From Liolophura sinensis (Eukaryota > Mollusca > Polyplacophora > Chitonida > Chitonidae): 64,000 nt of DNA. The translations under genes were made by a program, and so were the position numbers. The notes beneath the pieces were generated by a model, which was not told where the DNA came from, searched no databases, and saw nothing but the letters and a program-made list of their open reading frames with translations. Shown here piece after piece: positions 18,531-59,396 of the stretch. The first letter of the stretch is position 1. Each line of letters opens with the position of its first letter. Where the stretch lies: contig NC_088305.1 in assembly GCF_032854445.1 (NCBI RefSeq), positions 995,001 through 1,059,000 on the forward strand. The letters are read 5' to 3'.

Positions 18531-18534
18531 TGGC

Positions 18535-32835: not shown

Positions 32836-35800
32836 TTATTGACAGCAACAGCCGTTGGCCACGGAGGCTGTGTCTTGGACATCCTCAATTTGTATATTTG
32901 TAGGATCTGTACTGGTGATACAGACTGCGGAAAATGGTACATTGGTAAATCCGACATCCATACACGTGCCCATGCCACAACTTCCCACTTCAGTACATGC
33001 TTGTCCAATTGTGTCCGCTCTGCAATTATAATACATGTACATCCATTTTAATAATAGCTAAACGCGCCTAAAAATGCGAATGAAAGGAATTATAGGATAC
33101 AGGATGTCTTAGGCAAAACACTAGAATCTTAGGCATTTGGGCTATGTAGAATAGCCCCAAAAAATGCTTTCACAAAATACCAGCCTCTTCATTGCGCGTG
33201 TTACCGTTCAAAATCGAAGTTCGTGCACTCTATAATACGGTGGCTTTATAACATTTTTAAAATTTAGAAATATGTTAACACTATAAATGGTACAGGAGCG
33301 AGCCTAATATTTTAGTTTTAAAATGCAAAACATCTGAATTATCTATGTAAACAGTGTTGATTCAATGAACGAATATATTGGATCTTCACTAAGGGAAAAA
33401 TGGGTTCTTGCAACCCCAACCCTCGCCAGGTTCCAAGGCGAATGTACAAGGGCTTCAGCAAAAAAGCCTTAAAAGTTATTTACAGCATACAAAAGATGAA
33501 GAAAACTGAGAAGATGAGCGTCTGTAAATTTACGAATTTTTATTTTAGAGGATATATTTTTATTTCATTATATTATATTATTACTACTACTATAGCTCCT
33601 ATATACTCTATGATATATATAGAGGTTTTCTCACTGTAGATTGTTGATTTTTTTATGTCTTGTAGAGAAAAGTACACCATATACTGGTATGACATAGAAC
33701 CACGCCAAATTTAGGGGATATATATTGTGGGGTTAAAATTAACTATATTAACAATAAGGAAAATCAATGCCCTGCTGCAATCTATACATACGTGCACAGA
33801 GTTTCGGTTATTCCCGCGGCTGGAGCAGTGATGATACAAATCCTGCCGGTCATTTGGTCCACAAAAGTTCTGCCGGTCACAGTCTGTGCCACACAGGTAA
33901 GCTGAGTACACTCACACCTAAATGTAAAATGGAAAGCCTTGAAATCAACAGGAAAAGACACAAACTACAAACTTACAGACAAATCAAACAAACTATATAT
34001 TATAAATTCGTCACATTTTCATTCACTGAACAAATTCTTGGTGACGAGTAAAGAGTGATGGGTTGGGGGTAGAGGTGTGTGTTTGTTGGCGTGCGGGGTG
34101 GGGGTGGGGGGTCTGTACATTTCTTTTTTCATCCCTGAAGGGGCGATGAACGAGACGTGGGAAGGTTGGGACGGCGGTTTTCACATCACCACCTAAGTTC
34201 TACCAAATATGTTGAACTCTTTCCACATGATTCAAGTCAAAAATCTTAGCTTGAAAACCTGGAGAAAATTTTTCAGTTTTATAACCTTATTTTTTTTTTT
34301 ATTCTTTTTTTTTTAGTATTAGAAAAACAATATAGAACGTTTTAAGATTGTTAGCTTTGGGAAAATACCTAAATATATTACTGAAAATATACTGTTTGCA
34401 CCCTAATTAATTCCTTCTAGGAAACACTAGACGGTGGCCATCTGAAATTAAGTGTCTGTACTCTCAAAATGAATAGTCTCATACATTTAACATAAAGTAT
34501 GTTGTCTGGGTAATGCTAGAATCTATCCTGTTACACTTATTCTTTTAATTTAACACATGCCCTGAAAGTAGGAAACTAACGGGACATTATGTAATTATGA
34601 GAAAGTATCATATTACAATAACAGATTGCAATCTAGCATTACTTAGACAGCCGACTTTCTGGTCAAAGGAACAGAATATTTTTTGCAGTATACATTTATG
34701 ATAAAAATCATTTAAGCCCATTTAGCCATTAGCGGAAGAGGTATATACGAACCCAGGATTGTGCGGGCGCTGAAAGAACGAAAATGAGCGTGACTGGGCA
34801 GCCTGAGCTCTTTGCCGGGCAGCTGGATGACTTTGGAAAAAATTTTCGATCTGCTGGCTGAAAAAGAAACGCACATGCTAGAAAAATAATCAACATATGA
34901 AATTTTATTAGGATTATGTACTTTTCGTCCACGATATAGCTTTCGTCGACCTTTTTACACATGTGAGTTTGGCGTACATATTCTGTGTGCTTCTTAAACA
35001 TGTGGGTTAAAAAATGCACAGTTGGAAAGTGCAACAGGACTCTTAGTAAATAAGATCAACTTTAAAGTGGATATAAATTGCAATACATACTGAACAATTT
35101 GAGCAATCACTGAAAGACTTTTCCGGTTTGTGAAATCCACGGATTTTCACTGACATTGCGAAGTCAAATTTGTAATTTTGGTAGAAGGCTAGTAGTCACT
35201 AGGGAACTGTATGTAAGGCAGATGGCAATGTAATTTCAATGTAATTCCTGTGTCACCCGTTCCAACCCCGGAGAAATGGGGAGTAAATTTAAATAAGCAC
35301 CGTTGGCTCCAGATGATTTTTTGTAAAATAAACAACTCTTGATAAAGCGGGACATGTTACCTGACAATAACTTGACAAACAGCTGGACAATCAAACCAAA
35401 CATGTTACCTGCTGGGGATTCCGGGACCGTCATACGGCCTTAGTACAAGATTCTGCCCTCTGATTACTCTCTGTCTCGTGTTAGAACTTGTCCCTCCGCC
35501 CCTACCAACATTTGGCCCTCCGACCGGGTTAATACGACGCAAAAAGCTCTGGCGGGCGCCCGTCGGGTGAAACCGGGCAGCATAGGCAACACTGACTAAC
35601 AAGAGCCCAAGGCAGACGGGAAATATCTGAAAAGATTTAGGACAATTTATTGTCAATTTTTACTACAGGATTATATCTGGCGCATGTTTATCCCAGTATA
35701 AATTATGTCTGGCGCATGATTGCCACAGGACTCTCTGCTATACACACAACCGGGCGTTAGGCAAGGATCAAAAAATACATAAACAGATCTGCTATAGACA

Positions 35801-35869
35801 CCACCGAGCATAAAGGAATGCTACATAAAATCGTACTGGCCATAAAAGACTTACCAGACTTCGGGTCAT
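32836..35869 (-). CDS. Secreted Cys-rich peptide precursor, copy B (five exons, intact)
   Basis: Coding exons on the minus strand: 35,869-35,855, 35,626-35,409, 34,857-34,753, 33,917-33,792 and 33,019-32,836. They total 648 nt, 215 aa plus stop. Intron 1 is phase 0 and the other three are all phase 2. All acceptors are AG after pyrimidine-rich tracts; donors are GTAAGT, GTAACA, GTTCGT (weak) and GTATGT. Residues 1-21 form a signal peptide (MTRSL joined to IFPVCLGLLLVSVAYA), with predicted cleavage after AYA. Exon 2 then gives an Arg/Gly-rich linker with an RR site (SFLRRIN) and GGGTSSNTRQRVIRGQN. Exon 3 is Gln/Arg-rich (QQIENFFQSHPAARQRAQ). Exons 4 and 5 hold 12 cysteines, including CECTQLTC, CTEVGSCGMGTC and a terminal NGCCCQ. 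The C-x5-C-x4-C spacing is faintly EGF-like, but I do not recognise the family. An extracellular, disulfide-bonded product is inferred; function is unknown. Confidence 0.75.
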
Positions 35870-35917
35870 TTTTGCTGTTGTTTGACGACAGAAGCGGGTT
35901 CTTGAAACTGATGACAA

Positions 35918-35957
35918 ACTGACTCGTATTCCGCTACTGAAGACTTGGAAATTTATA
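35918..35957 (-). promoter_or_regulatory. Core promoter of secreted-peptide gene, copy B
   Basis: TATAAAT at 35,957-35,951 on the minus strand with TCAGTTT about 35 bp downstream. The leader to ATG 35,869 is identical to copy A by eye. The base pair before TATA differs (CGTATAAAT against CATATAAAT in A and C). Confidence 0.65.
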
Positions 35958-35959
35958 CG

Positions 35960-37986
35960 TTTGCGATTGACTTTTTCGTATTTTTAAGATTTTTAAAAAG
36001 CAATCGACCGTTTAATATAAAAAAAAGGCTAAACAATACACAGCGTACATATGCACAAATCACTGGATGGTTTTGTTTATTTTTTTAACTAATGAATAGT
36101 TAATATGCACAACCAACCAAATGGAACTGTCAGTTTGTGAAATTTGCAGTTTTATTAACATAAATAAAATCTGATTGGTAAACTACATAATATATATAAT
36201 AAAGACAGAAAAATTGTACACGTAACAGTTTTGTTTAAGGAATTTGTACTCGAAAAAAAACTGAAAAAAACAAAACTGATTAAAAAAGGGTATAGTTGTG
36301 CGTGAAAAATTAGGTCTTGCGAGAATGTTTGTACCATTGTACCATTTGTACAATTTCTGTTAAAACAACCAATCAATTGCGTCAAGCTGTTTTGGTATTT
36401 ATTCTCTTACATTGCACTGTAATCATTTTTGCATGTTTAACATTTTTTTCATGCTGTGCTTAATTTTTAATACATGCGCTTGGTTTATAAAGACATGAAT
36501 TTATTTTTTAACGCTTATATTTACTGTGTAATTACAGTGACTGTAACAAATGGGATGGGTTTATTGCTTGAGCAGAGTTTCCAATGTATATAATCAACAA
36601 CAATATAAACGGTCTTATTATCAGTTGCTGGATAAACACGTTTAAGTGTGTTACATTTAAGCATTGTATTATCAGTTGCAATGAGGTGTTTATGACACTT
36701 TTCCATTATACATATGTAAAATAATTTTATACATATGCGTAATTCTTTTGTACATAAGTGGAAATCTTGTTGGCATGCATAAGTATAACCAAAATTTTAT
36801 TTCACATATACATGAACAAAAGTTTTCAGCAAAATACCCAAACTGCTTGCCATTTTCTGACAGGTTAGACCAATATTATACTATATATTAGTGCTGCCTA
36901 ACTCCAATAACCATGGTATGAGAACGCAATAACTCAAATTGAAAGGGAGTGAATATAATTTTACAGGAACAGATTGCATAAAAGACAAATGTCAATGAAA
37001 ACCGTCTCTACAAAGCTGTTTACTTATAATTTAATGTTTTCCCACTGAATTAAATGCAGTTGCTTTATACACTAGTCTGTCAATTTCATAGAAGCCACCT
37101 TTTTTCTTCTACAGGCGAATTTCTTTTAAAAACATATTTGAAATGCATTTTTAATTATGCGCTGTAAGTCCTATACCAACATTAAAACCCGTGTTTAGAC
37201 TTGAAAACACGTTTTGTTTCTAAACACAAGCCAGGAATTTCATGAAATCCATCTTAGTTTTTAAACATTTGAATGCTTTTAAATCAACCAATCAACAGGA
37301 TACATGGCGATGTGATCAGCACTTGGTCACCCTAAAGATCCGAGTTCACATGGCTAGTAATCTTCTCGACGAGAAGCATTGGGCCGCCTGTTTGCTGACA
37401 GGAAGCCACCGTAAGCCGTGCTCCCGTGTTCACAGGGAAGAAAGCCCAAACATATGGTCCTTCAAATACCTTCATATGATATATAACAGTGTAATTCACC
37501 AAAAACAAAATTAAACCAAAGCTTAAAACAATTGTTCATTCAAAAGACAAGTTGGTGAATTTTTTACTTTTTAATATTCCAATTTTCTTTTTCGCCTATA
37601 CCTGCTTTAAGCAGGACACGTCTCTCACTTATTCTGACACAAGTGCTTTTTGTTGTATCTTTTAACGCTATAGTGTGATGCTCATACTAAATAAAAACGG
37701 CTAGTTACATTAACATGTGCCTGGGGATGCAGGCTAACACTGAACTTCGGGTGGTGTTGGAGGTTTACACGTTGGATTTAACTATGTTAGACGCTGCTTG
37801 ATTTCATTTAAAATTGTAATTATTACTTTTCGTTGATTTTTGGCTAATTTGTTACATATCTTGAAAATGAAATGTTATTTACAACTTTGATAATGATCAG
37901 TGATAATTTTGGAAGAAATGGAGGAGGTTAAGAATTCGTAACTTTAGATTTATAACTCGATGAGGTGTAGAGTTTTTTTTTCCTTC
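35960..37986. other. Non-coding upstream region, block B
   Basis: Near-identical to 11,740-13,754. No gene supported. Confidence 0.5.
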
Positions 37987-38222
37987 ATTTGATTTGAGGT
38001 TTACTCCGTACTCAATAATATTTCACTTATACGACAGCGGCCAGCAATGTGTTGGGAGGAATCCGGGCAGAGCCCGAGGGAAATCGACGACCATCTGCAG
38101 CTTGGTGGTAGACCTTCCCACATGTACTTGGAGAGGAAATCAGAATGGGTTGGACTGGAACGGCCAGAGTGGAAGCCAGCATGATCTGGGCTTGAACTCA
38201 CACAGACAGAATTGGTGAGAGG
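37987..38222 (-). mobile_element. SINE copy, block B
   Basis: Counterpart of 13,755-13,990, differing by only one or two bases. Confidence 0.75.
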
Positions 38223-38513
38223 CTCCTAGGTCATTGAAACGTTGCAAAATGTAGAACTTTACAAAATGCTTAAACATGCTGTAGTTCAAGACAAGCCCAT
38301 GTCATATTAACACTATTGGGCGTTGTGCTCCGCACAATAAATGTTGGAAATCTTCAAACCTATTAAAACATTAGCGAACAATCGTTTCAAAATGTTTTCA
38401 GTCAGATGTTACAGGATTTAAAATGATGTATGATTTTAAAACTTAGAAAATCATGGTAACCTAACATTTGTATTTTATGTTTGTAAATTCGGTAAACAAC
38501 CAAGGCTGTTGCC

Positions 38514-38740
38514 GCAAACTTTATTTATTTAAACATTTGATTGGTGTTTACGACGTGCTCAAATATATTTCACTTATACTATGCCGACCAAAAGTATGGT
38601 AAAAGGAAATAGGGCAGAGCCCCAGGGAAACCCACAAACGCCTGCAGGTTGCTGGAAAACCTTGCCACCTACGGCCCGTTTGCTGATGGTAGACAATGGT
38701 GTACAGCATACTCGTTTATCAGAAATTTGTTGGCCGCATG
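38514..38740 (-). mobile_element. Second SINE fragment, block B
   Basis: Counterpart of 14,283-14,510, again abutting the CT-rich minisatellite. Confidence 0.65.
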
Positions 38741-38789
38741 AGACTATCCCGCAACTTACCTCTCTCCCCGTAGCGTACATGTCCTGAAT

Positions 38790-41700
38790 TTCCCCCATCC
38801 TCCCCCTCCCGCCAACAAACATGCGTTGACTCACCCCTATCTTCCCTCTCTTCACCCCCCCCCCCCCACCCCACCCCAGCATCCTCAACCAACATACGTT
38901 GGCTATCCCCCAATCCCTCGCTCCCCAACAGGCATACCCTAACTATCCCCCATCCTCTCCCTCTCTCCCCCAAAGTCCATGTGCTGCCCATCCTATATTC
39001 TCACTCTCAGCCATTCCCCAATCAAGATGCGCTAACTATTCCACATCCTCTAACCTCAACCACCTGGTATGTCTTGACTATTCTCCATACTCTCTCCTTC
39101 AATAACAACATGCGATGACTAATCCACACTCTCCTCGTTCCTCAACCTCCCCACCCAGTATGCACACTCCGCCACTCCCCCCCCCCCACATGCGCTGACT
39201 ATTCTCCATCCTCTCCCCTCCCCACACAACATGCGATGACTATTCCACATATTTCCCCACCCACTCACCCAGTATGCACACTCCCCCACCCCACATGCGC
39301 TTTCTATATTACATTCCCTCTCCTCCCCACACAACATGCGATGACTATTCCACATACTTCCCCACCCACTCACCCAGTATGCACACTCCTCCACCCCACA
39401 TGCGCTTTCTATATTACATCCTCTCCCCTCCCCACCCTACATTCGATGACTATTCCACATACTTCTCCAACCACTCACTCAGTATGCACACTCCCCCACC
39501 CCACATGCGCTCACTATTCCACATCCTCTCCCCTCCCCACACAACGTGCGACGATTATTCCACATCCTTCCCCACACACTCACCCAGTATGCACACTCCC
39601 CCACACCACATGCGCTTACTATACAACATCCTCTCTCCTCCCCACACAACATGCGATGACTATTCCACATCCTTCCCCACCCACTCACCCAGTATGCACA
39701 CTCGCCCACCCCACATGCGCTTACTATACCACATCCTCTCTCCTCCCCACACAACATGCGATGACTATTCCACATTCCACATCCTCTCCCCTCCCCACAC
39801 AACATGCGATGACTATTCCACATCCTTCCCCACCCACTCACCCAGTATGCACACTCGCCCACCCCACATGCGCTTACTATACCACATCCTCTCTCCTCCC
39901 CACACAACATGCGATGACTATTCCACATTCCACATCCTCTCCCCTCCCCACACAACATGCGATGACTATTCCACATACTTCCCCACACACTCACCCAGTA
40001 TGCACACTTCCCCACCACACATGCGCTTACTATACCACATCCTCTCCCCTCCCCACACAACATGCGATGACTATTCCACATCCTCTCCCCTCCCCACACA
40101 ACATGCGATGACTATTCCACATACTTCCCCACCCACTCACCCAGTATGCACACTCCCCCACCCCACATGCGCTGACTATTCTCCATCCTCTCTTTTCCCC
40201 ACACAACATGAGCTCACTTTTCCACATCCTCTCCCCTCCCCACCCTACTTACGATGACTATTCCACATACTTACCCACCCACTCACCCAGTATGCACACT
40301 CCCCCTCCCCACATGCGCTAACTATTCCACATCCTCTCCTTTCCCCACACAACATGCGCTAACTATTCCACATCCTCTACCTTCCCCACAATACATGCGA
40401 TGACTATTCCACATACTTACTCACCCACTCACCCAGTATGCACACTCGCCCACCCCACATGCGCTTACTGTACCACATCCTCTCTCCCCCCCACACAACA
40501 TGCGATGACTATTCCACATACTTCCCCACCCACTCACCCAGTATGCACACTCCCCCACCCCACATGCGCTGACTATTCTCCATCCTCTCCCTTCCCCACA
40601 CAACATGAGCTCACTTTTCCACATCCTCTCCCCACCCCACCCTACTTACGATGACTATTCCACATACTTACCCACCCACTCACCCAGTATGCACACTCGC
40701 CCACCCCACATGCGCTAACTATTCCACATCCTCTCCCTTCCCCACACAACATGCGATGACTATTCCACATCCTCTACCTTCCCCACACAACATGCGATGA
40801 CTATTCCACATCCTCTACCTTCCCCACACAACATGAGCTAACTTTTCCACATCCTCTCCCCTCCCCACCCTACTTACGATGACTTTTCCACATACTTACT
40901 CACCCACTCACCCAGTATGCACACTCGCCCACCCCACATGCGCTAACTATTCCACATCCTCTCCTTTCCCCACACAACATACGATGACTATTCCACATAC
41001 TTATTCACCCACTCACCCAGTATGCACACTCCCCTACCCCACATGCGCTGACTATTCCACATCCTCTCCCTTCCCCACACAACATGAGCTAACTTTTCCA
41101 CACCCTCTCCCCTCCCCACCCTACTTACGATGACTATTCCACATACTTACCCACCCACTCACCCAGTATGCACACTCGCCCACCCCACATGCGCTAACTA
41201 TTCCACATCCTCTCCCTTCCCCACACAACATGCGATGACTATTCCACATCCTCTACCTTCTCCACACAACATGCGCTGACTATTCCACATCCTCTCCCTT
41301 CCCCACACAACATGAGCTAACTTTTCCACATCCTCTCCCCTCCCCACCCTACTTACGATGACTTTTCCACATACTTACTCACCCACTCACCCAGTATGCA
41401 CACTCGCCCACCCCACATGCGCTAACTATTCCACATCCTCTCCTTTCCCCACACAACATACGATGACTATTCCACATCCTCTACCTTCCCCACAATGCAT
41501 GCGATGAATATTCCACATACTTACTCACCCACTCACTCAGTATGCACACTCCCCTACCCCACATGCGCTGACTATTCCACATCCTCTCCCTTCCCAACAC
41601 AACATGCGCTCACCCAGTATGCACACTCTCCCAACGCACATGCGCTGACTATTCTCCATCCTCTCCCTTCCCCACACAACATGCGATGACTATTCCACAT

Positions 41701-42295
41701 ACTTCTCCACCGACTCACCCACTATGCACACTCCCCCCACCCCTCATGCGCTCACCATTTTACATCCTCTTCCTTCCCCATACAACATGCGATGACTATT
41801 CCACAAACTTCCCCACCCACTCACCCAGTATGCACACTCCCCCACCCCACATGTGCTCACTTTTCTCCAACCTCTCCCCTCCCCACACAACATGTGGTGT
41901 CTATTCCACACACTTCCCCACCCACTCATCCAGTATGCTCACTCCCCCACCTCTCATGCGCTGACTATTCTTCATCCTCTTTCCTATCCCCACACAACAT
42001 GCGATGACTATTCCATATACTTCCCCACCCACTCACCCAGTATGCACCCTCCCCCACCCCACATGCGTTCACTATTCCACATCCTCTCCCTTCCCACACA
42101 ACATGCGATGACTATTCCACATACTCCCCCCCCCCCACTCACCCAGTATGCACACTCCCCTACCCCACATGCGCTCACTATTCCACATCCTCTTCTTTCC
42201 CCACACAACATGCGATGACTATTTCACATCCTTCCGCACTCACTCACCCAGTATGCACACACCCTCACCCCAGATGCATTTATTATTCCACATTG
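38790..42295. repeat. CT-rich, 105-bp higher-order minisatellite, block B
   Basis: Counterpart of 14,560-17,945. The order of full and shortened units is the same up to about 40.7 kb; after that unit insertions and deletions accumulate (offset to A moves from 24,233 to 24,351). A 327-codon frame over 39,274-40,257 is a repeat artefact, because the equivalent frame in A is broken by one-base changes. Confidence 0.93.
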
Positions 42296-42880
42296 TCCCT
42301 CGACGTTGTCATTTTTTTATGAAATATGTACTTGTTGCGCACGAGTACAGAAAAAATAGTGCCATTTTCTTATATTAATAGGTGATGGTGTTGCGCGTAA
42401 GTACAGCATAGATAACACCATTATCTTATCAAATTTGTAGAGTTGCGCATGAGCACGAAAACGACGATGTCATTTTCTTATGAAATGTGTACAGTGTTAC
42501 GCATGAGTTCAGAAAATATGGTGCCATTTTTTTATAATAATAGGGTGTGAAGTTGCGCGTAAGTACAGCAAAGATGACACCATTTTCTTAGCAAATTTGT
42601 AGAGTTGCGCATGAGCACAAAAACAATGACGTCATTTTCTTATGAAATGTGCGAGGCAGAGTGTTACGCATGAGTTCAGAAAAGATGGTGCCATTTTCTT
42701 ATATAAATAGGGTAGGAAGTTGCGCATAAGTACAGCATAGAGGATGCTATTTTCATCAAATCATCGATTTGCGCATAAGTACAGAAAGAATGAAGTCATT
42801 TTCTTAAGAAATATGTACAGAGATGCGCATGAGTACATACAAGATGACGTCATTTTCTTTTCAAATATGTAGCCTACTAA
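42296..42880. repeat. 54-bp repeat with CRE-like palindromes, block B
   Basis: Counterpart of 17,946-18,530. Perfect TGACGTCA at 42,627-42,634 and 42,845-42,852, the same two units as in block A. Confidence 0.8.
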
Positions 42881-42892
42881 TAACTGGCACTT

Positions 42893-43250
42893 ATTGATTT
42901 TATTCATTTATTTGGTGTTTTACCACGTACTCATATTCGTACTCGTCGTAAACATATTTCACTTATACGATGGCGGGCAGTATTATCGTGGCAGGAAACC
43001 GGGCAGAGCTGGATGAAACCCGGGACCATTCCAAGGTTGTTGTCATACCTGCCCACTTAGGACCGGAGAAGATATATTTACATACCAATTGTGTAGACGG
43101 CGCCGAAGGTCAGATTCACCAGGACGCCCCCTGTTATCTCCCGAACAGCCCAGAACTCCACCATTGCCCAAGGGCTTCCCCTAAGATCTACTGTTACCGC
43201 AAGACAATAATCTGTCGACCACTAAGCCCTCACAGCATGCACACTGATCT
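42893..43250 (-). mobile_element. SINE remnant with unrelated flank, block B
   Basis: Counterpart of 18,535-18,890. One-base indels change the plus-strand frame relative to A, confirming that the open frames there are not under selection. Confidence 0.65.
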
Positions 43251-43559
43251 AAGTTTGTTGTAAGTTGGTTATACAATGTTTATATGCTTTAGTGTGACAA
43301 GGAAGGCCTGGGTTCGTGAATGTGCGAACCAGATATATGGAAATGTGTAGATAAACAAGTGACCACTATATCTGGTACCCCACAAACAGATGTATGCTAA
43401 ATCCGTTAATATTAACAGAAAGTCTATTGCTAGTGAGTGATGCTAGAGTGTATTGTGTTATTATAACATAATTCTGTGTTACATTCAACATAGTATCCTG
43501 TTAGTTTAATAGAATCTTTATGTTGAATTAACATATATGTTAAATTCAACAGAAATAAT

Positions 43560-43665
43560 TGTGGCAGCAACCTGCCGTTGGTCGTGGATTTCATACTGGA
43601 TCTGCCCGGTTTCCTCACCGTAATGTTGGCCGCCGTGGAGCAAGTGAAGTATTCTCTGTTGCAAT
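43560..43665 (+). mobile_element. SINE fragment, block B
   Basis: Counterpart of 19,205-19,310. Confidence 0.6.
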
Positions 43666-44539
43666 AGAATACTCTGTTGCATTAGCAGAATACAATCTGG
43701 AAGACAACAAACTTTCTCTGAAAATTAACATTATGTTTCTTGCGTGTACGCTTGTAGACGTTGAGTATTCGAGTATGTGATTTTCGAGATCCTTTCTTCC
43801 TGTTCTCTGCCTCGTACATTGTTTTCTGTGAATCATCTTTGTTAGCCGTCGGGAATATCAGACGCATTGCGTCATACAATGCTAGTTTGTGCAATGTGTT
43901 CGTATGCCCAGTGTCAATACAGTGTGACTGAGCGGGGTGTCATGTCTGTTGTCTTCCGCATGAAGCTTCCCTGGCGGCAGCATTTTGGGCGCATGATCTC
44001 GACGTGCCGTGCCTTCTACGGCCTTACGCTTTGGATGGTCTGCGGGCATCCTGCGGATAGCTGTATTTATATGTCAGCTATTTTCTTATTGGTATAAAAT
44101 GTATGGTTGGTGGACATGGGGAAGACTCTGAGTAAAAGTACAGCTTAACAGCCGTGCCTTCCCTGTGTAACCTGAAAACAATGACAGATGTGGAGAGCAC
44201 TCTGAGTAAAGATGCTGGTCAAGAGCTGTGCCTTCCCAGTGTAGCCTGAACTATGATGGATGTGATGTAATGACAACATATAACATATTTACAGGACAAA
44301 ACAAGGAACTGGTTACAAACATAAAAAAAAGAAATGATACAGATAGATAACAGACCGAATAAACTATAGAAATATGTAATATATGCAACAACAAAAGTAT
44401 TTACACTATAAAAGAATGAATCATATGTATCATATGTGATAAAATGAGGCTACAATGCGAGGACATAAAGACTACTTACTGAAATAATATTTATCATTAT
44501 CATTTAATATGAGAAGAAATTTCAATGCTAGCCATCGAT
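43666..44539. other. Non-coding, nothing recognised
   Basis: Counterpart of 19,311-20,185, nearly identical. No gene supported. Confidence 0.4.
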
Positions 44540-45190
44540 TTAAAATCTATTTGATTCTGCAATAAATTTATGCACAGTTTTTAAGACAATTTTGTTTTCT
44601 TTAGGTTTTACTTCATCGGATCCAAATAATACTATATTACAATTATATTTTGAACACGAAGGAATAAATATTGTGTAGTTTACGCCTGCAGATATTGTTG
44701 ATGTAATTTGTTCGAGCATATGATTTCTTTGAGTGGCATATTTGGCATTCAAAAAAATAATGTAGTAATAAAGTACATTTTTACATAAATGATTACAATT
44801 CGGGCACGCGCGAACATTGCTTAAATTGTACTTCAAAAGGTCGGCATTCAGAGCGCTAAGTCCCAAAGTATCATTTACAAATGTTAGGTAAAGTAATGGA
44901 CCAAGTATAGAACCCTGAGGGAGCACGCAGGAAATGGGTTTGGCATCTCATTCACTACCATTAATACAGACCTTGATTTTTCCTCTCAGTTAGATGATCA
45001 TTCAGCCAAGAAAGTAATAGATCTCCAATACGAAATTGCTCCAACTTAAACAGAAGACCTTTATGCCAAACTTTATCAACTGCTTTACACACATCAAGAA
45101 AGGCCATACACATGTCATTTACGTTGTCAAGGTTTTGACATATTTGATTTATTTTGATAACAAATTCGCAAATCCCAGTGTAAGTATTAC
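44540..45190 (-). pseudogene. Non-LTR reverse transcriptase remnant, block B
   Basis: Same frameshift and same internal deletion as 20,186-20,835; one Glu-to-Lys change (NHLCKNVL). The shared lesions show that the element was dead before the A/B duplication. Confidence 0.85.
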
Positions 45191-45208
45191 AATTTTCCTT
45201 TCACGTCA

Positions 45209-45236
45209 CAGACACACACACACACACACACACTCA

Positions 45237-45328
<92 letters not shown>
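45209..45328. repeat. (CA)n microsatellite, block B
   Basis: About 120 bp, 14-16 bp longer than in block A, with fewer interruptions. Confidence 0.95.
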
Positions 45329-45329
<1 letters not shown>

Positions 45330-47589: not shown

Positions 47590-47789
47590 NNNNNNNNNNN
47601 NNNNNNNNNNNNNNNNNNNNNNNNNNNNNNNNNNNNNNNNNNNNNNNNNNNNNNNNNNNNNNNNNNNNNNNNNNNNNNNNNNNNNNNNNNNNNNNNNNNN
47701 NNNNNNNNNNNNNNNNNNNNNNNNNNNNNNNNNNNNNNNNNNNNNNNNNNNNNNNNNNNNNNNNNNNNNNNNNNNNNNNNNNNNNNNNN
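47590..47789. other. Assembly gap (200 N)
   Basis: Exactly 200 N. The flanks match 23,210-23,218 and 23,325 onwards of block A, where only about 106 bp separate them, so the gap length is probably a placeholder and the missing sequence short. Frames called across it are meaningless. Confidence 0.98.
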
Positions 47790-48654
47790 TGCATCTTAAA
47801 GAACGCAAATATACATTACTATATCTAACAAAACCATTCCATGACAGAGAAAATAATTTTTTAAGAACTTTACAAATTGAATTCATCAATTTGTCGTAAT
47901 TGGTTTCATTGTCTGTGTTATTTGTTTTGGCAATGTATTGTAAGTTATTTTTCCTCGTGATATGTTTTTAAAAATTTTAAATGGCACTAATGGGCCACCA
48001 GTATTTTATAATACCTTGGAAATTTTGCGAATTTGAAACAGCTTTTAATCCAGTGAAAGGAATATGGTGACAAAAAGGAACGAAATGAAAATATTTTCTG
48101 CCCAATATCACCTGTAACTACATTGATGTCTGTAAGAGTAATTTTCCGTTTCGGGCAGGTGTTTTCAAAATCGATGGTTTTAAAGTAATACATGCTGAAG
48201 CCGCCTGCATCCATCATACCGAGAGTAAACCTTGTAAAAATTAAATACAACGAAAGTCTCCTCCACTTTTATCTTATTTTTAAACAGTCGCATCGTAATT
48301 CCAGAGCCAATTATCCTTGTGCTCATCTGATGGCAAGAACGTTAACCTATGTAGCTGTTCTTATTATTGTCTTGGCCAATCCCCACCCAGTGAATGATGT
48401 CAGTCCAAGGCACTGGCTTTAAAACAGGAGAGACAAAAATCAGATAGCAGTACGTAAATGTTTTGAAGATCTTTTGATATGGGAATTTACATATGTCTCG
48501 CACGATCTGTGGATCATCGCCGGGCAGTGTGTGCTGACAGTGCAATTAAAAATTCGGTGCTTTTGTCATCTTAAAGGACAAAATGAAAGTATTCGACGAA
48601 ACATACAAACTGTTTAGGGGATTCTTTTTCCCCCAGAAGCGGGGAGATTTGTAT
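47790..48654. other. Non-coding, right of assembly gap
   Basis: Counterpart of 23,325-24,177, with an unusual density of one-base indels relative to block A (for example at 47,860-48,060 and 48,290-48,560), compatible with either lower sequence quality next to the gap or a different conversion history. Confidence 0.45.
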
Positions 48655-48815
48655 CAGAATATTAGTTACGTCGTTGTAATAGTAGTTTACCTGAACCTTA
48701 ACACAGATGCATCATCCCTAATCCTTAATACCTTTTTTTGAAATCGCTAATCCATATACGCTATCTCTTTCACACCCACCCGGGATCTCTCCCTTCTCCC
48801 CTACTGCCCTAGTAT
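48655..48815. other. Block-B-specific insertion of about 160 bp
   Basis: In block A the sequence TTGTATCAGAATCTCTCTC runs directly into the TC tract. In block B about 160 bp of unique sequence, AT-rich then C/T-rich, separates them. No terminal repeats seen. Confidence 0.7.
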
Positions 48816-48820
48816 TCTCG

Positions 48821-48824
48821 TCTC

Positions 48825-48862
<38 letters not shown>

Positions 48863-48892
48863 CCCTCTCCCTCTCTCTCTCTCTCTCTATCT

Positions 48893-48974
<82 letters not shown>
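48821..48974. repeat. (TC)n microsatellite, block B
   Basis: Interrupted TC tract with CCC interruptions not present in block A. Confidence 0.95.
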
Positions 48975-48976
<2 letters not shown>

Positions 48977-48984
48977 TATGTCCG

Positions 48985-50700
48985 TAATGTAAATAAAACT
49001 GTCCTTGGTATCAGACACTGCTATGTCGGTGTTGTGGATACACGGTGTCCCTGACATCACACACCGCTGTGTCTGTGTTGTGGAGAAACAGTGTACCTAA
49101 TATCACCCATTGCTATGCCGGTGTTGTGGATACAAGGTTTCCCTGATATCACACACTGCTATGTCGGTGTTGTTGATACAAGGTGTCCCTAATATCACAC
49201 ATTGCTGTGTCTGTGTCGTGTCCCTAATATCACAAATTGCTGTGTCTGTGTTGTGGACAAACAGTGTCGTTAATATCACACACTGCTATGTCGGTGTTGT
49301 GGATGCAAGGGCGTCTTAAATATCACATACTGCTATGTTGTGTTAGTGAATAAAGAGTGCACCTAATATCACTCATTGCTATGTCGGTGTTGGTGGGTAC
49401 AGAGTGTCTTCTAATATCACTCATTACTATGACGGTGTTGTGGGTACAGAGTGCCCCTAATATCACTCATTACTATGACGGTGTTGTGGGTACAGAGTGC
49501 CTCTAATATCACTCATTACTATGACGGTGTTGTGGGTACAGAGTGCCCCTAATATCACTCATTACTATGACGGTGTTGTGGGTACAGAGTGCCTCTAATA
49601 TCACACACTGCTGTGTAACTGTTATGGATGCAGAGTATCCCTAATATCAACCATTCCTTTTCCGGTGTTGTGGATACAGAGCGCCCCTAATTATTTATCA
49701 ATTGCTATGCCGCTGGTCTTGATACACATTGTCATTTATGTTCACCCATTGCTATGTCGGTGTTGTGGATACAGAGTGCCCTTAACATCACACACTACTA
49801 TGTCTGACAGAGGGTTCCCTTAATATCACTCATTGCTACATGTTTGACGGTGTTGTGGATACAGAGTGCCCTTAATATTCACACATTGCTGTGTAGATGT
49901 TGTGGATACAGTTTGCCTGTAATATTGTGCACTGCTATGTGGGTATTATGGATACAGAGTGCCCTAAATGTAACACATTGCCATGACGGTGTCGTAGATA
50001 TTACGTGTCCTTAATATTACATGGTGTTGTGGATACAGAGTCTCCTTAATATTACACACTGCTACATGTAGATCGGTGTTGTGCACACAGAGTGCCCTTA
50101 ACAATTACATACTGCTATGCCGGTGTTGTGCATACAAAATTTCTTTAACATCACACAACTGCTATGTCGGTGTTGTGAATATAGACTGCCCATATTATCG
50201 CTCGCTGTTATACCTGTATTGTAGATACATAGTGCCAATATTACCGCACACCGTTTTGTCGGTGTCGTGGATACATAGTGCCAATATCATCAAAACAACG
50301 TTTTCTCAGTGTTGTGGATACATAATGTAAGTATTATCACACACTGTCATTCCGGTGTTTTTCATACAGAATGTACATATTTTCTCCGCAGTGCTATGAC
50401 GTAGGGTGTGGTGTGTAGTGCCCCTTATATCACACACTGCTATATCGGTGTTGTGGATACAGAGCGTCCCTAATATCAGGTATTGCTATGTAGGTGTTGT
50501 ATATACAGAGTGTCTTTAATATCATACGGTGTTACATCGGTGTTGTGAATACAGATTGCTCTTATTACCACACACTGCTATATGTTTACCGGTTTTGTGG
50601 ATACAGAGGTGTCCTTAATATAACACACTATTTCCATGTATACCGGTGTTGTGGATGCCTTATTGTCACACACGGCTGTGCCTGCGTTGAGGGCATAAAG
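48985..50700. repeat. 46-bp minisatellite, block B
   Basis: Counterpart of 24,325-25,900. Around 49,375-49,600 there are about four nearly identical consecutive units (GACGGTGTTGTGGGTACAGA, GTGCCCCTAATATCACTCAT, TACTAT) that block A lacks, a recent local amplification. Confidence 0.92.
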
Positions 50701-51069
50701 AAATTGATTCCTTAATGTAAGAAAAGCTGGCAATGCCGATGTTAACCGTGCCCCCCAAATCACCAGCAATATAATCTCAACAGTGTGAATTTAGAGTGTC
50801 CTCAATATAACACTCGATTTCCTCCCGCCGTATTTCTGGCTACAGTCGTAGAAATATTTATGACAACGGCACAAAACAACAATCAAAACAATAAATAAAT
50901 CAATGGAACAAAAACTGCAATGCCATTTTGTGGATACACTGTGCCCTCAAAACCACAAGCAGTGTAATCCCAATATTGTGGACACAAAGTGTACATTTTT
51001 CCGCATTCCATGTGTGTACTTCAACATTTGCATGAAAAAACATTTTCCGCTGTAAAAGACGTCAGTTTT

Positions 51070-53250
51070 GTCTGGCCGAGTCATCTAAGATGTCATTCTC
51101 ACTATAGTCAGGTACTCAGTGAGTCTGTCGTGTGAGGCAGATGTCAGGAAACTGAGTAACTCGATCATACAAGGTCTTACAACTCACTGTAAACATTATT
51201 TTCCTCGTTTAGTCATACAATCTGCCTCTGTAATAACAAACGTCAACCTTCACTGGCTGCATGTATGTAAGATGTTACTCACTGTGGACATCAGGTACTG
51301 AGTGATCCAGTCACCCCTCACAGGTGTCACTCTCACTCCAATTTTTTGTTGTTGTTGTTTTTACTCCTTCTTACAATATGCCGCTGTTTAGTACAAACGT
51401 CAGTCTTCACTTTCTGCATGTATAGAAGGTGTCAGTCATGGAAGATGTCATGGTACTCAGTGACCCAGTCATCTAAGTGTGACTCTTCTCACTATAGTGA
51501 GAAACTCAGTGACCCAGTCATCTAAGGAATGAATGAATGATAGTGGTTTAACGCCACATCAGCAATATTTTAGCCATATCGTGATGACGGTCATCTAAGA
51601 ATTTACTCTAACTGAAGACCTCAGGTACTCAGTGAATCAGTCTTCCAAGCTAGGCATCAGTCAGTCGTCTAAGGCAGTTGTCAGGACTTGAGTGACTCGG
51701 TCAAACGAAATCTCACTCTCCCTGTAAACTTTATTTCCTCGTTAAGTCATACAATCTGCCGCTGTAATAACAAACGTCAACCTTCACTTGCAACATGTAT
51801 ATAATCGCTCTCACTGTAGACGTTAGATACTCAGTGTCTCAGTCATCTAAGTTGTCGCTCTAACTGTAGACGTTAAGTACTCAGTGTCTTAGTCATGTAA
51901 GTTGTCAGTCTCACTCAGTCATCTAAGGTGTCGCTCTCACTGTAGACGTTAGGTACTCAGTGTCTCAGTCATCTAAGGTCTCGTTTTCACTGTAAACTTT
52001 GTTTCCTTATTTCCTCTATCATACACTGTGCCGATGTCACTTCAAACGTCAGCCTTTACTTGCTGCATGTATATAACGTGTAACTCACTGTAGACATCAA
52101 GTACTTACCCAGTGACTCATTCATCTAAGCTGTCACTTCCACTGTAGACGTCAGGTAGGCTACACAGTGACTCTGTCATCTAAAGTGCCGATCTTACTGT
52201 AGACGTCATGTTCTCAGTGTCTCAGTCATCTAAGGTGTCGATCTCACTCAGTCATCTAAGGTGTCGCTCTCACTGTAGACGTTAGGTACAGAATGTCTGT
52301 TATCTAAGGTGTCGTTCTCACTGTAAACTTTGTTTCCTTATTTCCTCTATCATACACTGTGCCGATGTCACTTCAAACGTCAGCCTTTACTTGCTGCATG
52401 TATATAACGTGTAACTCACTGTAGACATCAAGTACTTACCCAGTGACTCCGTCATCTAAAGTGTCGATCTCACTGTGGATGTCAGGTACTCAGTGACTCA
52501 GTCATCTAAGGAGTTAATTTCACTATAGACATTAGCTACTTCTTGACTCAGGCATTTAAGTTGTCGATCACACTGTAGACGTAAGGTACCCAGTGACCCA
52601 GTGATGTAAGGTGTCACTTCCAATGTAGACGTCAGGTAGGCTGCACAGTGACTTTGTCATCTAAAGTGTCGACCTTACTATAGATGTCAGGTACTCAGTG
52701 ACTCAGTCATCTAAGGTGTCACACCCACTGTAGACGTCAGGTAGGCTGCACAGTGACTTTGTCATCTAAAGTGTCGACCTTACTGTAGATGTCAGGTACT
52801 CAGTGACTCAGTCATCTAAGGTGTCACTTCCACTGTAGACGTCAGGTAGGCTGCACAGTGACTTTGTCATCTAAAGTGTAGATCACACTGTAGACGTCAT
52901 GTACTCAGTGACTCAGTCATCTAAGGTGTCACTTCCACTGTAGACGTCAGGTAGGCTGCACAGTGACTCTGTCATCTAAGGTGTCGATCTCACTGTGGAT
53001 GTCAGGTACCCAGTGACCCAGTGATGTAAGGTGTCACTTCCAATGTAGACGTCAGGTAGGCTGCACAGTGACTTTGTCATCTAAAGTGTCGACCTTACTA
53101 TAGATGTCAGGTACTCAGTGACTCAGTCATCTAAGGTGTCACTCCCACTGTAGACGTCAGGTAGGCTGCACAGTGACTTTGTCATCTAAAGTGTCGACCT
53201 TACTGTAGATGTCAGGTACTCAGTGACTCATTCATCTAAGGTGTTACTTT
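51070..53250. repeat. 50-bp minisatellite, array 3 (between blocks B and C)
   Basis: Same family as arrays 1 and 2. The segment 52,600-53,230 contains a near-perfect repeat of a multi-unit block (52,615-52,800 against 53,035-53,220), indicating recent amplification of a higher-order unit. Confidence 0.92.
51528..51596 (-). mobile_element. Second SINE-type tail in array 3
   Basis: Same insertion as 26,765-26,832, at the same position within the minisatellite, so the flanking minisatellite was duplicated together with the block. Confidence 0.6.
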
Positions 53251-54000: not shown

Positions 54001-54057
54001 ACGCATATGATCTTTAAGCAATATTGTAGACATACATAAGCTGGACAATTGGTACTG

Positions 54058-57000
54058 TTATTGACAGCAACAGCCGTTGGCCAAGGAGGCTGTGTCTTGG
54101 ACATCCCGAATTTGTATATTTGTAGGATCTGTATTGGTGATACAGATTGCGGAAAATGGTACATTTGTAAATCCGACATCCATACACGTGCCCATGCCAC
54201 AACTACCCACTTCAGTACATGCTTGTCCGATTGTGTTCGCTCTGCAATTATAATACATGTACATTCACTTTAATAATAGCTAAACGCGTCTTGGAAATAC
54301 GAATTAAAGGGATTATACGATACCGGATGTCTTAGGCAAAACACTAGAATCTTAGGCATTTGGACTATGTAGAATAGCCCAAAAAAATGCTTTTACAAAA
54401 TACCAGCCTCTTCATTGCGCGTGTTGCCGTTCAAAATCGATAATGAAGTTCGTGCACTCTATAATACGGTGGCTTTATAACATTTTCAAAATTTAGAAAT
54501 ATGTTAACACTATAAATGGTACAGATACGAGCCTAATATTTTAATTTTAAAATGCAAAACATCTGAATTATCTATGTAAAAAGTGTTGATTCATTGAGCG
54601 AATATATTGGATCTTCACTAAGGGAAAAATGGGTTCTTGCAACCCCAACCCTCGCCAGGTTCCAAGGCGAATGTACAAGGGCTTCAGCAAAAAGCCTTTA
54701 AAGTTATTTACAGCATACAAAAGAAGAAGAAAACTGAGAATATGAGCGTCTGTAAATTTACGAATTTTTATTTTAGAGGACATATTTTTTTCCATTATAT
54801 TATATTATTACTACTACCACAGGTCCGGAACTTCTATCTAACACCTGGTTCAAATATGTCAGCATTCTGTTAGTTTTAAATGAAACCGAAAAACATTGGC
54901 CGAGAGTACCATCCACCCCACTGAGGTAACCACGGCGACAGAATGTTATGACATCCCGTCTAATAACCACGTCTAACAAAAGGCGCTTATGTTGTGTGTT
55001 TTTTTGTATAGTATACAAGTATATCATGTAGTGGTATGACATAGTACCACGCCAAAGTTAGGGGATATATATATTGTGGGGTTAAAATTGACTACATTAA
55101 CAATAAGGAAAATCAATACCCTGCTGCAATCTATACGTACGTGCACAGAGTTTCGGTTAATCCCGCGGCTGGAGCAGTGATGACACAAATCTGGCCGGTC
55201 ATCTGGTCCACAAAAGTTCTGCCGCTCACAGTCCCTGCCACACAGGTAAACTGAGTACACCCACACCTAAATGTAAAATGGAAAGCCTTGAAATCAACTG
55301 AAATCAACAGGAAAAGACACAAACTACAAACGTACTGATAAATCAAACAAACTATATGTGATAAATTCGTCACATTTTCATTCACTGAACAAATTCTTGG
55401 TGACGAGTAACGAGTGATGGGTTGGGGGCAGAGGTGTGTGTTTGGTGGCGTGGTGGGGGGGGGGGGGCAGAGATGGGAGGGGGGGGCTGTACATTTCTTG
55501 TTTTCATCCCTGAAGAGGCAATGAACGAGACATGGGAAGGTGGGGACGGAGGTTTCACATCAACCCCTAAGTTCTACCAAATATTTGAAAGTCTTTTCAG
55601 ATGATTCAATTCAGAAATCTTAGCTTGAAGACCCTGAGAAAATCTGTCAGTTTTACTTCCTTATTTTTTTTATGTTTTTTGATATTTAGTATTAGAAAAA
55701 CAATATAGAACGTTTTAAGATTGTTAGCTTTGGGAAAATATCTATATATATTACTAAAAATTTACTGTTTGCACCCGAATTAACTCGTTCTAGGAAACAC
55801 TAGACGGTGGCCATCTTAAATTAAGTGCTTATACTGTCGAAATGAATAATTTCATAAATTTAACATAAGGTATGTTGTCTAAGTGATGCTAGAATCTATT
55901 CTGTTACATTTATTCTTTGTATTTAATATGCAGCTTGAATGTATGAAACTAACGGACATTATGTCATTATGAGACAATATCATGATCATGTTACAATAAC
56001 AGATTACAATCTAGCATTACTCAGACAACAGACTTTCTGGTCAAAGAAACAGAATATTCTTTGCAGTGTACATTTATGTTTTAAATCATTTAAGCCCATT
56101 TAGCCATTAGTGGAAGAGGTATATACGAACCCAGGATTGAAGTGCCGCTGAGAGAACGAAAATGAGCGTGACTCGACAGCCTGAGCTCTTTGCCGGGCAG
56201 CTGGATTACGTTGGAAAAAATTTTCGACCTGCTGGCTGAAAAAGAAATGCACACATTAGAAAGATCGTCAACATTTGAAATCTTGTTACGATTAAGTCTT
56301 TTTCGTCGTCAGTACAGCTTTCGTTGACGTTTTCACAGATATAAGTTTCGCGTACATATTGTTTGCTTCTTAAACATGTGGGTTAAAAAAATGCACAGTT
56401 GGCAAGTGCAACAGGACTCTTAGTAAATAAGATCAACTTTAAAGTGGATATAAGAAAAGTAAAGGAAACTTATTTCTTATCTCTTTGGTGTAGTCACGAC
56501 CGCATTTTGCATTTATTTCAATGAAGTTTGATGAATAAGGTTTGAAGTGAAATGTTTATTAGTAGGCCTATTTCTCTGCCGGGCATTATTACGGCCATTG
56601 ACAAAGTTGCTAGAACTGGCACGTGATCATGAGTCTGTCTTGCTGTAAGTTTATGTCGTCGTGAGTGAATGTCACGCGGTTTAATTGACGAAGGAATCCT
56701 GAGTGCCCGAGTAAGTAAACGACCCACCTGTGTCAAGAAATGAGGAACATATCACACAGAAAATCCATCTGTTCTGTCCTCTAACATACCAATGTTTCTG
56801 TAGAATGGTGTGTTAGAAAAGCACACAGATATTGGAGAATAACTTCTGAATGTGTTTTACACAGCTTAACACCAGGTTTATGTGGGCAAGAAATCACGAA
56901 TGCAGTTCAGGTAATGAAAACTACATGAATTTCCTTTCAAAAGACAGGGCTGACACGTGAACACTAGTCTATCTGATAACACGTAAATCTCGCTCTAAAT

Positions 57001-59396
57001 TGCATTTCAAACCGAAAAGTTTGAGCAATCACTGACAAACTTTTCCGGTTTGTGAAAACCACGAATTTTCACTTACATTGCGAAGTCAAATTTGTAATTT
57101 TGGTAGAAGGCTAGTAGTCACTAGGGAACTGTATGTAAGGCAGATGGCAATGTAATTTCAATATAATTCCTGTGTCACCCGTTCCAACCCCGGAGAAATG
57201 GGGAGTAAATTTAAATAAGCACCGTTGGCTCCAGATGATTTTTTGTAAAATAAACAACTCTTCATAAACGGGACATGTTACCTGATAATAACTTGACAAA
57301 CAGCTGGACATTCAAACCAAACATGTTACCTGTTGGGGATTCCGGGACCGTTATATGGCCTTAGTACAAGATTTTGCCCTCTGATTACTCTCTGTCTCGT
57401 GTTAGAACTTGTCCCTCCGCCCCCACCACCATTTGGCCTTCCGCCCAGGTTGATACGACGGATGAAGTTCTGACGGGCGCCCCCCGGCTGAAACCGGGCA
57501 GCATAGGCAACACTGACTAACACGAGCCCAAGGCAGACGGGAAATATCTGAAAATATTTAGGACAAATATCAATTTTTTCATTGCCACAGGACTATCTGG
57601 CGCATGTTTATCACAGGACTATATGGCGCATAATTACCACAGGACTATCTGGCGCATGTTTACCACAGGACTATCTGACGCATGATTGCCACAGGACTAT
57701 CTGGCGCATGATTACCACAGGACAATTTGGCGCATGTTTACCACAGGACCATCTGGTGCATATTTATCACAGGACTATCTGACGCATGTTTACCACAGGA
57801 CTATCTGACGCATGATTGCCACAGGACTATCTGGCGCATGATTACCACAGGACAATTTGGCGCATGTTTACCACAGGACCATCTGGTGCATATTTATCAC
57901 AGGACTATCTGACGCATGATTACCACAGGACTACCTGGTGCATGTCTACCACAGGACTACCTGATGCATGTTTAACACAGAACTATCTGGCGTATGTTTA
58001 CCACAGAACTATCTGGCGTATGTTTACCAGAGGGCTATTTGGTTTATGTTTACCACAGGACTGTCTGGCACATGTTTACCACAGGACTATCTGACGCATG
58101 ATTGCCACAGGACTATCTGGCGCATATTTATCACAGGACTATCTGACGCATGGTTACCACAGGACTACCTGGTGCAGGTTTACCACAGGACTACCTGATG
58201 GATGTTTACCACAGAACTATCTGGCGCATGTTTACCACAGAACTTTTTAACATCAGTGACTGTTCATTGCTTCTCTGGCGTATGTTTACCAGAGGGCTAT
58301 CGGGTGCATGTTTACCACAGGACTATCTGGCACATGTTTACCACAGGACTATCTGGCACATGTTTACCACAGGACTACCTTGTGTATGTTTACCACAGAA
58401 CTATCTGGCGCATGTTTACCACAGGACTATCTGGCATATGTTTACCACAGGACTATCTGGTGCATGTTTACCACAGGACTATCTGGTGCGTGTTTACCAC
58501 AGGATTATATCAGGAGCTCGTTGATAAAACTACATGTATCTGTCCTTGTTTAGCATATGTCTGATCGTGGTTAAATCCAAAGAATGAGACCTTAGCCCTA
58601 TAAATAAGTTGGAGCTCTCCAATATGGACTCGAAATCGTTTAACAGATAATAATTCTTTTTCTTTCAATTTTTTGAGCAATGTTGAAGTATTTTTGTTCA
58701 TATGTGGATATGCTATAAGAGCTTTACTTTATGTGATTTTCGAATTTTAAGTCATTTTATTTATTTTACCTTATTTCAAAAGCGAAAGTTTCCTACTTTT
58801 TCTAATTTTAGATGTCAATCAAAGCTCAACGGAGATCGTGTACTATGCCAGAATATTGATTTCACTCAGTCGCCTAGAACATACGTTGCGTCTTTTTAAC
58901 ACCAGTGACTGTTCACTGCTTCTCTTTGCATGATTACGTCCTATTTTCGTACGGTATATACTTCCTTAATTATGTGGTAATTTGTGCTAAACGTCGTTTT
59001 GGGAATTAGCCTTGTGATTATTGACCTGGAAAGTCCATCTTGGTCGACGGCTGGTATACGAATGTCTTTTTCGGCGCATAGATGCAAGAATCAGATAAAC
59101 GTTTAAATAGACCTATTTTACATATGCCGGAATTAAATAGAGGTACAGATACTATACAGATTATTGGATGTTATCCAAGAATCACCAGCTATACACACGA
59201 CCGGGCGTTAGGCAAGCATCAAATAAATACATAAATAGACCCCCTATAAACATCACCGGGCGCCATGCAAGAATCAAATAAATGCATAAATAGACCTGCT
59301 ATACACACAACCGGGCGTTAGGCAAGAATCAAATAAGTAAATGAATACTGTATAAAATCGTACTGGCGATAAAAGACTTACCAGACTTCGGGTCAT
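54058..59396 (-). CDS. Secreted Cys-rich peptide precursor, copy C (five exons, intact)
   Basis: Coding exons on the minus strand: 59,396-59,382, 57,547-57,330, 56,235-56,131, 55,266-55,141 and 54,241-54,058. Exon lengths and phases are identical to copy B (648 nt, 215 aa plus stop). The signal peptide differs at one residue (IFPVCLGLVLVSVAYA). Mature-region changes against B are scattered and mostly conservative (FLRRINPVGG to FIRRINLGGR, QQIENFFQSHP to QQVENFFQRNP), and all 12 cysteines of exons 4 and 5 are kept (CGCTQFTC, CTEVGSCGMGTC, NGCCCQ). Alternative frames of exon 3 contain a stop in this copy, which fixes the reading frame. Intron 1 has grown from about 228 to 1,834 bp by a 26-bp minisatellite. 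Function unknown; secretion is predicted. Confidence 0.75.
56452..57018. other. Block-C-specific insertion of about 570 bp
   Basis: Lies in the intron between exons 3 and 2 of copy C, breaking the sequence that is continuous at 10,848-10,870 in block A. No terminal inverted repeats, target duplication or homology to other parts of the window seen. Confidence 0.7.
57590..58510. repeat. 26-bp minisatellite in intron 1 of copy C
   Basis: About 35 units of CCACAGGACTATCTGGCGCA plus TGTTTA, with variants TGATTA, TGATTG and TATTTA. Blocks A and B carry only two or three degenerate units (11,440-11,520 and 35,670-35,745), the probable seed. Since 26 bp is not a multiple of three, each plus-strand frame repeats a 26-residue motif; these open frames are artefacts. 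Confidence 0.95.
58511..59180. other. Unique sequence in intron 1 of copy C
   Basis: Not present in blocks A or B. A phrase of about 30 bp (ACCAGTGACTGTTCACTGCT with TTTTTA before it) at about 58,890-58,925 recurs at about 58,238-58,272 inside the minisatellite. No gene supported. Confidence 0.5.
59190..59340. repeat. Short tandem triplication, intron 1 of copy C
   Basis: Three degenerate units of about 55 bp containing GCTATACACACGACCGGGCG, TTAGGCAAGCATCAAATAAA and TACATAAATAGAC. Blocks A and B have about one and a half units. Confidence 0.75.

Follow-up and report, generated by a model that had tools for sequence, protein, structure and literature searches.

Crustins are bipartite antimicrobial proteins in which a Gly-rich part is combined with a Cys-rich part. 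Among molluscan proteins with 12 Cys residues, the inhibitors of MEROPS family I84 (cvSI/scSI) are encoded in tandem clusters, and the razor-clam report gives them the Cys array CX5-8CX4-5CX7-9CX4CTCX6-23CX5-7CX3-6CX5-8CX4CXC, three exons that divide these residues 6+6, a signal peptide encoded over two exons, an intron within the Cys region, a mature length of 69-89 amino acids (aa), and exon phases of 0, 2, 2 with introns of "type 1" (PMC9198434). The exon phases 0, 2, 2 were interpreted here as a notation for phase-1 introns. From chitons, radular teeth matrix protein 1 (RTMP1) is described as a protein of 539 aa with a predicted signal sequence and a Gly/Ser-rich region, followed by WF-rich and His-rich regions (PMC6351634). 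Here, we analyzed a stretch of 64,000 nucleotides from the chiton Liolophura sinensis (the window, scaffold_7:995001-1059000), in which an earlier note had claimed an unrecognised tandem family of five-exon genes for secreted Cys-rich precursors. The window was found to hold part of an array of five-exon genes for Cys-rich, probably secreted precursors, whose intact members encode a basic segment followed by an acidic domain with 12 conserved Cys residues.

Comparison with described families

Like the crustins, the array proteins combine a low-complexity basic/Gly segment with a Cys-rich domain; they differ in the number of Cys residues and in having neither a WAP domain nor any other Pfam match at E ≤10. 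The likeness to RTMP1 consists of the occurrence in a chiton, a predicted signal sequence, and a low-complexity region next to others, and identity with RTMP1 was rejected on size and architecture. The likeness to I84 goes further: both families are molluscan and clustered in tandem, both have 12 Cys residues, and in both the signal peptide is divided between two exons and the Cys region is interrupted by an intron. The two families differ in the Cys array (the array family begins with CXCX4C and ends with CCC, whereas I84 has a central CTC and ends with CX4CXC), in gene structure (five exons with the Cys residues divided 5+7, against three exons and 6+6), in intron phases (0, 2, 2, 2 against type 1), and in size (a Cys domain of ~102 aa plus a basic segment, with a predicted mature protein of 154 or 194 aa, against 69-89 aa) (PMC9198434). 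These four differences led us to reject membership in I84, which is used in the following as a comparison family only.

A protease inhibitor with an I84-like mechanism, in which disulfide-fixed loops would offer a reactive site to secreted proteases of pathogens, is a separate question. It would agree with the 12-Cys tandem cluster in a mollusc, the intron-split signal peptide, and the further intron within the Cys region, and the variable residues of the array proteins cluster at 156-168 and 190-200, where specificity could change. Since the array proteins match I84 neither in the Cys array and its 6+6 division nor in the number of exons, the intron phases, or size, and since no reactive site was identified, we consider an inhibitor of this kind unlikely.

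Database searches gave no described relative. With whole B, whole C (two of the gene copies, see below), the Cys domain of B, or that of a distant paralogue as query, zero Pfam-A families were retrieved at E ≤10, a search in which the HMMER filters discard most weak matches. The sequence of B had a single match in the PDB (E 1.3, residues 35-72, an unrelated chain), and a profile of six sequences had none at E ≤10. Contigs of IMG/VR and GTDB contained 31 and 30 stretches with the word pattern, none of which was confirmed as a relative. Six peptide strings of the array family had zero matches in the literature, and among the chiton papers listed as matches, titles and the beginnings of abstracts revealed no antimicrobial, inhibitor, or comparable Cys-rich family, a narrow look that leaves absence unproven. 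The family is unrecognised, as had been claimed, within the scope of Pfam-A (no family), the PDB (no significant sequence match), IMG/VR, GTDB, and the literature searched.

Gene structure and copy number

The genome searched comprises 609,464,459 bases in 632 contigs; the assembly was first published as that of Liolophura japonica (PMC11068029), and the species was renamed L. sinensis by correction (PMC12441733). A DNA search with exon 5 of copy B matched at least six genomic places, all of them on the minus strand of scaffold_7 (32,819,725 bases), a chiton nuclear chromosome. The order of genes on the mitochondrial contig, translated with the invertebrate code, corresponds to that of another chiton, Katharina. 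The array was found to have six members over ~128 kb, five of which (B, C, D, E, and F) are intact and one (A) is broken (Table 1). Splicing of B and C by script from the exon coordinates confirmed the tandem five-exon structure with equal lengths in both copies (15/218/105/126/184 nt), GT/AG borders at every intron, and intron phases of 0, 2, 2, 2; the resulting coding sequence (CDS) of 648 nt encodes 215 aa, and D, E, and F are built alike. Exon 1 of B and C encodes MTRSL and is followed by a GTAAGT donor, as stated in the earlier note, and it is the same in all six copies. The TATA box described there as common to the loci was recovered as TATAAAT at position -88 from the ATG in 6/6 copies, with few variable positions from there to the exon 1 donor. 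At the 3' end, a common block with AATAAA lies no more than 900 nt downstream of B, C, A, and F; in the corresponding region of D and E, AATAAA or ATTAAA matches occur without this block. Intron 1 of B is expanded to 1834 nt by a 26-bp minisatellite of 35.5 copies (window 57585-58508); its length in the other intact copies (C, D, E, F) is 228 nt.

Copy A (window 11648-8381) is 97-100% identical to C in exons 1-3. Its frame is lost through insertions of 1 nt (exon 2) and 11 nt (exon 4) and a deletion of 32 nt (exon 5), and it is, therefore, a pseudogene. Thus, among the three loci of one family proposed for the window, B and C stand as intact genes and A does not.

The predicted precursor

The N-terminus of the precursor reads MTRSL-IFPVCLGLVLVSVAYA-A, and residues 1-21, which are split by the phase-0 intron, resemble a signal peptide by inspection. 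This agrees with the secreted precursor proposed earlier as far as the start of the protein is concerned; secretion itself would be expected from it. The full proteins contain 13 Cys residues (14 in E), one of which (two in E) is situated in the signal peptide, leaving 12 beyond it. These 12 are present in all five intact copies, in agreement with the earlier claim, in the order CXCX4CX18CX13CX8CX5CX4CX13CX23CCC with five in exon 4 and seven in exon 5. The Arg/Gly linker described before turned out to be a Lys-free basic segment and part of a sharp division of the protein: the basic part (residues 22-112) has a charge of +8.9 to +12.0 and contains 11-14 Arg and zero Lys, and the acidic part (residues 113-215), which holds the 12 Cys residues, has a charge of -5.3 to -12.3. 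The computed isoelectric points of 12.00 and 4.05 are to be taken as "very basic" and "very acidic"; we take both values to resemble end stops of the routine.

Residues 48-70 have zero variable columns among the five intact copies. Within this block, RQRVIR is found at residues 56-61 in 5/5 copies and is invariably followed by Gly. The pattern R-x-R-x-x-R fits furin-type convertases, and RQRVIR was called by eye as a putative furin-like site; because it is kept in all five intact copies, the product is likely to be a proprotein. If cut at this site, the proprotein is predicted to yield a 4.2-4.4 kDa basic segment and a 16.3-16.5 kDa product; the predicted mature length is 154 aa in this case and 194 aa if the signal peptide alone is removed. 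Structure prediction restricted to the 60 aa of exon 5 (B and C) gave a predicted local distance difference test score of 50.5 and a predicted template modelling score of 0.34, which is too poor for use. The Cys spacing in exon 5 may resemble that of domains of the colipase/prokineticin type.

The bipartite charge, which nearly cancels out in D, E, and F, and the low-complexity Gly/Arg segment would also suit a charge-paired, disulfide-linked matrix or adhesive protein of a tough or hard secreted structure, such as the plates of the shell, the sclerites of the girdle, the radular teeth, the egg hull, or pedal mucus, and plates, sclerites, and teeth are mineralised by chitons (PMC7850002). Such a role appears somewhat unlikely: the array protein has no repeats and matches no Pfam family at E ≤10, chitin-binding ones included, and the sole radular matrix protein compared, RTMP1, differs in architecture (PMC6351634).

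A paralogous Cys domain 15.6 Mb from the array

A weak match to the Cys domain of B was detected at position 16,676,954 of scaffold_7 (contig C11), 15.6 Mb from the array. Reading of the DNA revealed at this locus a counterpart of exon 5 and, upstream, a counterpart of exon 4, with GT/AG borders and the same phase; the exon 4 assignment rests on place, borders, phase, and alignment. In the reverse search, the paralogue had no match other than its own locus and, in each of the five intact copies, exon 5 (E values of 2.4e-4, 2.8e-4, 0.009, 0.03, and 0.96). Alignment gave 35 of 95 positions identical (37%) with 12/12 Cys residues kept, and the remaining positions were 28% identical; the probability that all 12 Cys residues fall among the identical sites was 1.5e-6, a value that is flattered by the preference of the aligner for Cys matches. 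The upstream exons and the basic segment were not found near the paralogue, for which reason the Cys domain may be the older module.

Constraint, divergence, and exon exchange

The five intact copies have zero stops, zero coding indels, and zero Cys losses despite 123 changes. This was compared with a single-hit neutral simulation (123 random hits starting from F, 20,000 runs, five intact copies with A excluded), in which 1.8% of the runs had no stop, all 12 Cys residues survived in 0.26%, and both conditions held in 1/20,000. The numbers of coding indels predicted from introns 3 and 4 are 6.5 (B-C, P 0.0015), 4.4 (C-D, P 0.013), and 4.8 (B-D, P 0.008), versus zero observed; the indel test has no power for D-F (P 0.24) and E-F (P 0.62) and covers five of the ten pairs, which are non-independent. 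The extra copies D, E, and F, the same-phase paralogue with 12 Cys residues, and the outcome of the simulation confirm that the observation is more than chance.

The ratio of nonsynonymous to synonymous changes (dN/dS, omega; NG86) over the whole CDS ranged from 0.76 to 2.46 in the ten pairs of intact copies, with the top value for D-E, which hardly differ. The whole-CDS value for B-C was 1.10; taken separately, exons 1-3 gave 1.20 and exons 4-5 gave 0.99. The changes per codon position amounted to 47/42/34 without an excess at the third position. Thus, frame and Cys residues are held and the remainder diverges at a roughly neutral rate, a pattern compatible with constraint and diversification acting together. 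An effectively neutral array in decay, in which the likeness of the copies is kept by recent duplication alone, would account for the B-C value, for the absence of a significant departure from omega 1, and for a copy A that is already broken. We regard this as highly improbable given the single simulated run that kept frame and Cys residues, the lack of B-C coding indels, the 12 Cys residues of the distant paralogue, and the TATA box and exon 1 that are the same in 6/6 copies.

The copies are mosaics at the level of exons. The copy nearest to B is F in exon 2 (11/218 differences, versus 17-19 for the remaining copies) but C in exons 4-5 (19/310, versus 37-40), and D, E, and F have the same exon 3 sequence; 504 of 1176 pairs of informative sites are incompatible with a single tree. 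Gene conversion or unequal exchange would be the simple reading of this pattern. Mosaic tandem copies and an omega near 1 could likewise be expected of a gamete or seminal recognition protein shaped by sexual conflict, against which stands the lack of any Pfam family; a reproductive function of this type is distinctly unlikely in our view.

Possible function

Host-defence families are commonly secreted, with a fixed Cys scaffold and changing residues in between, exon-exchanging tandem copies, and a dead copy. We favor a defence role and propose, tentatively and with considerable doubt, that the array may encode an extracellular host-defence protein. Tandem clusters and 12 Cys residues also characterise the molluscan I84 defence inhibitors (PMC9198434).

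If the genes are expressed, a defence protein might arise as follows. The signal peptide (residues 1-21) would lead to the Lys-free, Arg/Gly-rich basic segment of a secreted proprotein, and a furin-type convertase would cut RQRVIR|G, giving a basic segment of ~4 kDa and a mature protein of ~16 kDa. The latter would consist of a short basic tail and the acidic 12-Cys domain with six likely disulfides. It might act in haemolymph or mucus, where the Cys domain would bind a microbial or parasite target; the basic segment could anchor the Cys domain to anionic surfaces or act as a second, cationic product. The array would have grown via tandem duplication, with exons shuffled between copies, probably by gene conversion, and with a Cys scaffold that stayed fixed as the rest of the protein changed at about the neutral rate. 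The fuller version of this proposal appears rather unlikely as a whole, namely a proprotein of the chiton lineage of which one gene yields both a cationic Arg/Gly peptide and an acidic, undescribed 12-Cys fold, together forming a conversion-diversified, polymorphic innate defence repertoire.

Several points weigh against the defence reading. The array is known here from genomic DNA alone, and both furin site and signal peptide were identified by eye. Omega counted over the five copies was 1.28 for the whole CDS (p 0.33), and the regional values (signal peptide 0.62, linker 1.49, Cys domain 1.23) were likewise not significant; neither was the exon versus intron rate (p 0.054 for E-F and 0.13 for D-F, from rounded rates). 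Positive selection as a demonstrated feature was rejected on these non-significant omega and rate tests. Relaxed constraint or conversion could yield an omega near 1, fast change equally suits reproductive or matrix proteins, and the mosaicism weakens tree-based counts. Copy A, excluded from the neutrality tests, has lost its frame, and a scaffold gap sets B apart from the remaining copies. As to the paralogue, the initial match had an E value of only 0.24, its exon 4 counterpart was not found by tblastn from array to paralogue or in reverse, and its domain has a 13th Cys residue. Finally, the earlier note had stated that its proposal would be refuted if B and C had a dN/dS of about 1 in all of their exons, and the value of 1.10 is literally of this kind. 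In our view, such a value refutes little, since the intact copies keep frame, exon lengths, and Cys residues against the neutral expectation.

Since an omega near 1 coexists in the array with a strictly kept frame and kept Cys residues, dN/dS alone is unfit to dismiss such arrays. Chitons represent a deep molluscan branch, and the 12-Cys domain, its distant paralogue, and the five intact, diverging copies provide a concrete gene set for expression, proteome, and activity work.

Genomic setting and further observations

The gap between C and B is the sole N run in scaffold_7:902001-1079000 (177 kb), and the stretch from F to C is N-free. D and E differ by ~1% in introns 2-4, and the published heterozygosity is 1.22-1.26% (PMC11068029). 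A false duplication from uncollapsed haplotypes was considered on account of this closeness and rejected: D and E were treated as two loci because an N run is absent between them, yet their two-locus status is putative. They would represent very recent duplicates; haplotypes laid in tandem are less likely.

Table 1. Coordinates of array members, signals, and the scaffold gap (positions refer to the window unless scaffold_7 is given).
Feature	Position	Strand	Remark
B TATAAAT	59478..59484	(-)	88 nt upstream of ATG
B exon 1	59382..59396	(-)	MTRSL; phase-0 donor GTAAGT
B exon 2	57330..57547	(-)	remainder of signal peptide, basic Arg/Gly segment, RQRVIR site
B exon 3	56131..56235	(-)	basic tail
B exon 4	55141..55266	(-)	domain Cys 1-5
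B exon 5	54058..54241	(-)	Cys 6-12, stop
B AATAAA	53746..53751	(-)	within 3' block common to C, A, F
Scaffold gap	47590..47789		200 N, between C and B
C TATAAAT	35951..35957	(-)	88 nt upstream of ATG
C exon 1	35855..35869	(-)	
C exon 2	35409..35626	(-)	
C exon 3	34753..34857	(-)	
C exon 4	33792..33917	(-)	
C exon 5	32836..33019	(-)	stop
C AATAAA signal	32258..32263	(-)	
A exon 1	11634..11648	(-)	same as C
A exon 2	11186..11404	(-)	1-nt insertion
A exon 3	10530..10634	(-)	
A exon 4	9572..9708	(-)	11-nt insertion and stop
A exon 5	8381..8529	(-)	32-nt deletion
Copy D	scaffold_7 960,938-957,617		outside window; five exons, lengths as B/C, 215 codons
Copy E	scaffold_7 945,724-942,388		outside window; five exons, lengths as B/C, 215 codons
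Copy F	scaffold_7 929,984-926,649		outside window; five exons, lengths as B/C, 215 codons

A tandem segmental duplication of ~24 kb (window 9442-27478 versus 33649-52239), with large blocks of 90-98% identity, takes in most of copies A and C, and the scaffold gap is situated inside its second unit. Large minisatellites with a 105-bp unit at 14940-17926 and 39173-42293 of the window have long open frames on both strands, which look like by-products of the repeat. A fragment of a DDE_Tnp_4 transposase was detected at window 5268-5825 (E 0.00013, below the Pfam cut-off). Outside the window, between D and A, a Polinton/Maverick-like element (L012) is located at ~972-977 kb of scaffold_7; its separate frames matched an integrase core (E 2.3e-9), an A32-like packaging ATPase (E 1.9e-8), and, weakly and below the cut-off, DNA polymerase B (E 0.0038). 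Elsewhere in the assembly, COX1 was matched seven times (once partially) in G000:C99:8348-102844, with a common orientation and a spacing of ~15.5 kb; this series resembles a concatemer of mitochondrial DNA (the mitochondrial contig C632 has 15,209 bp) and is probably an assembly artefact.

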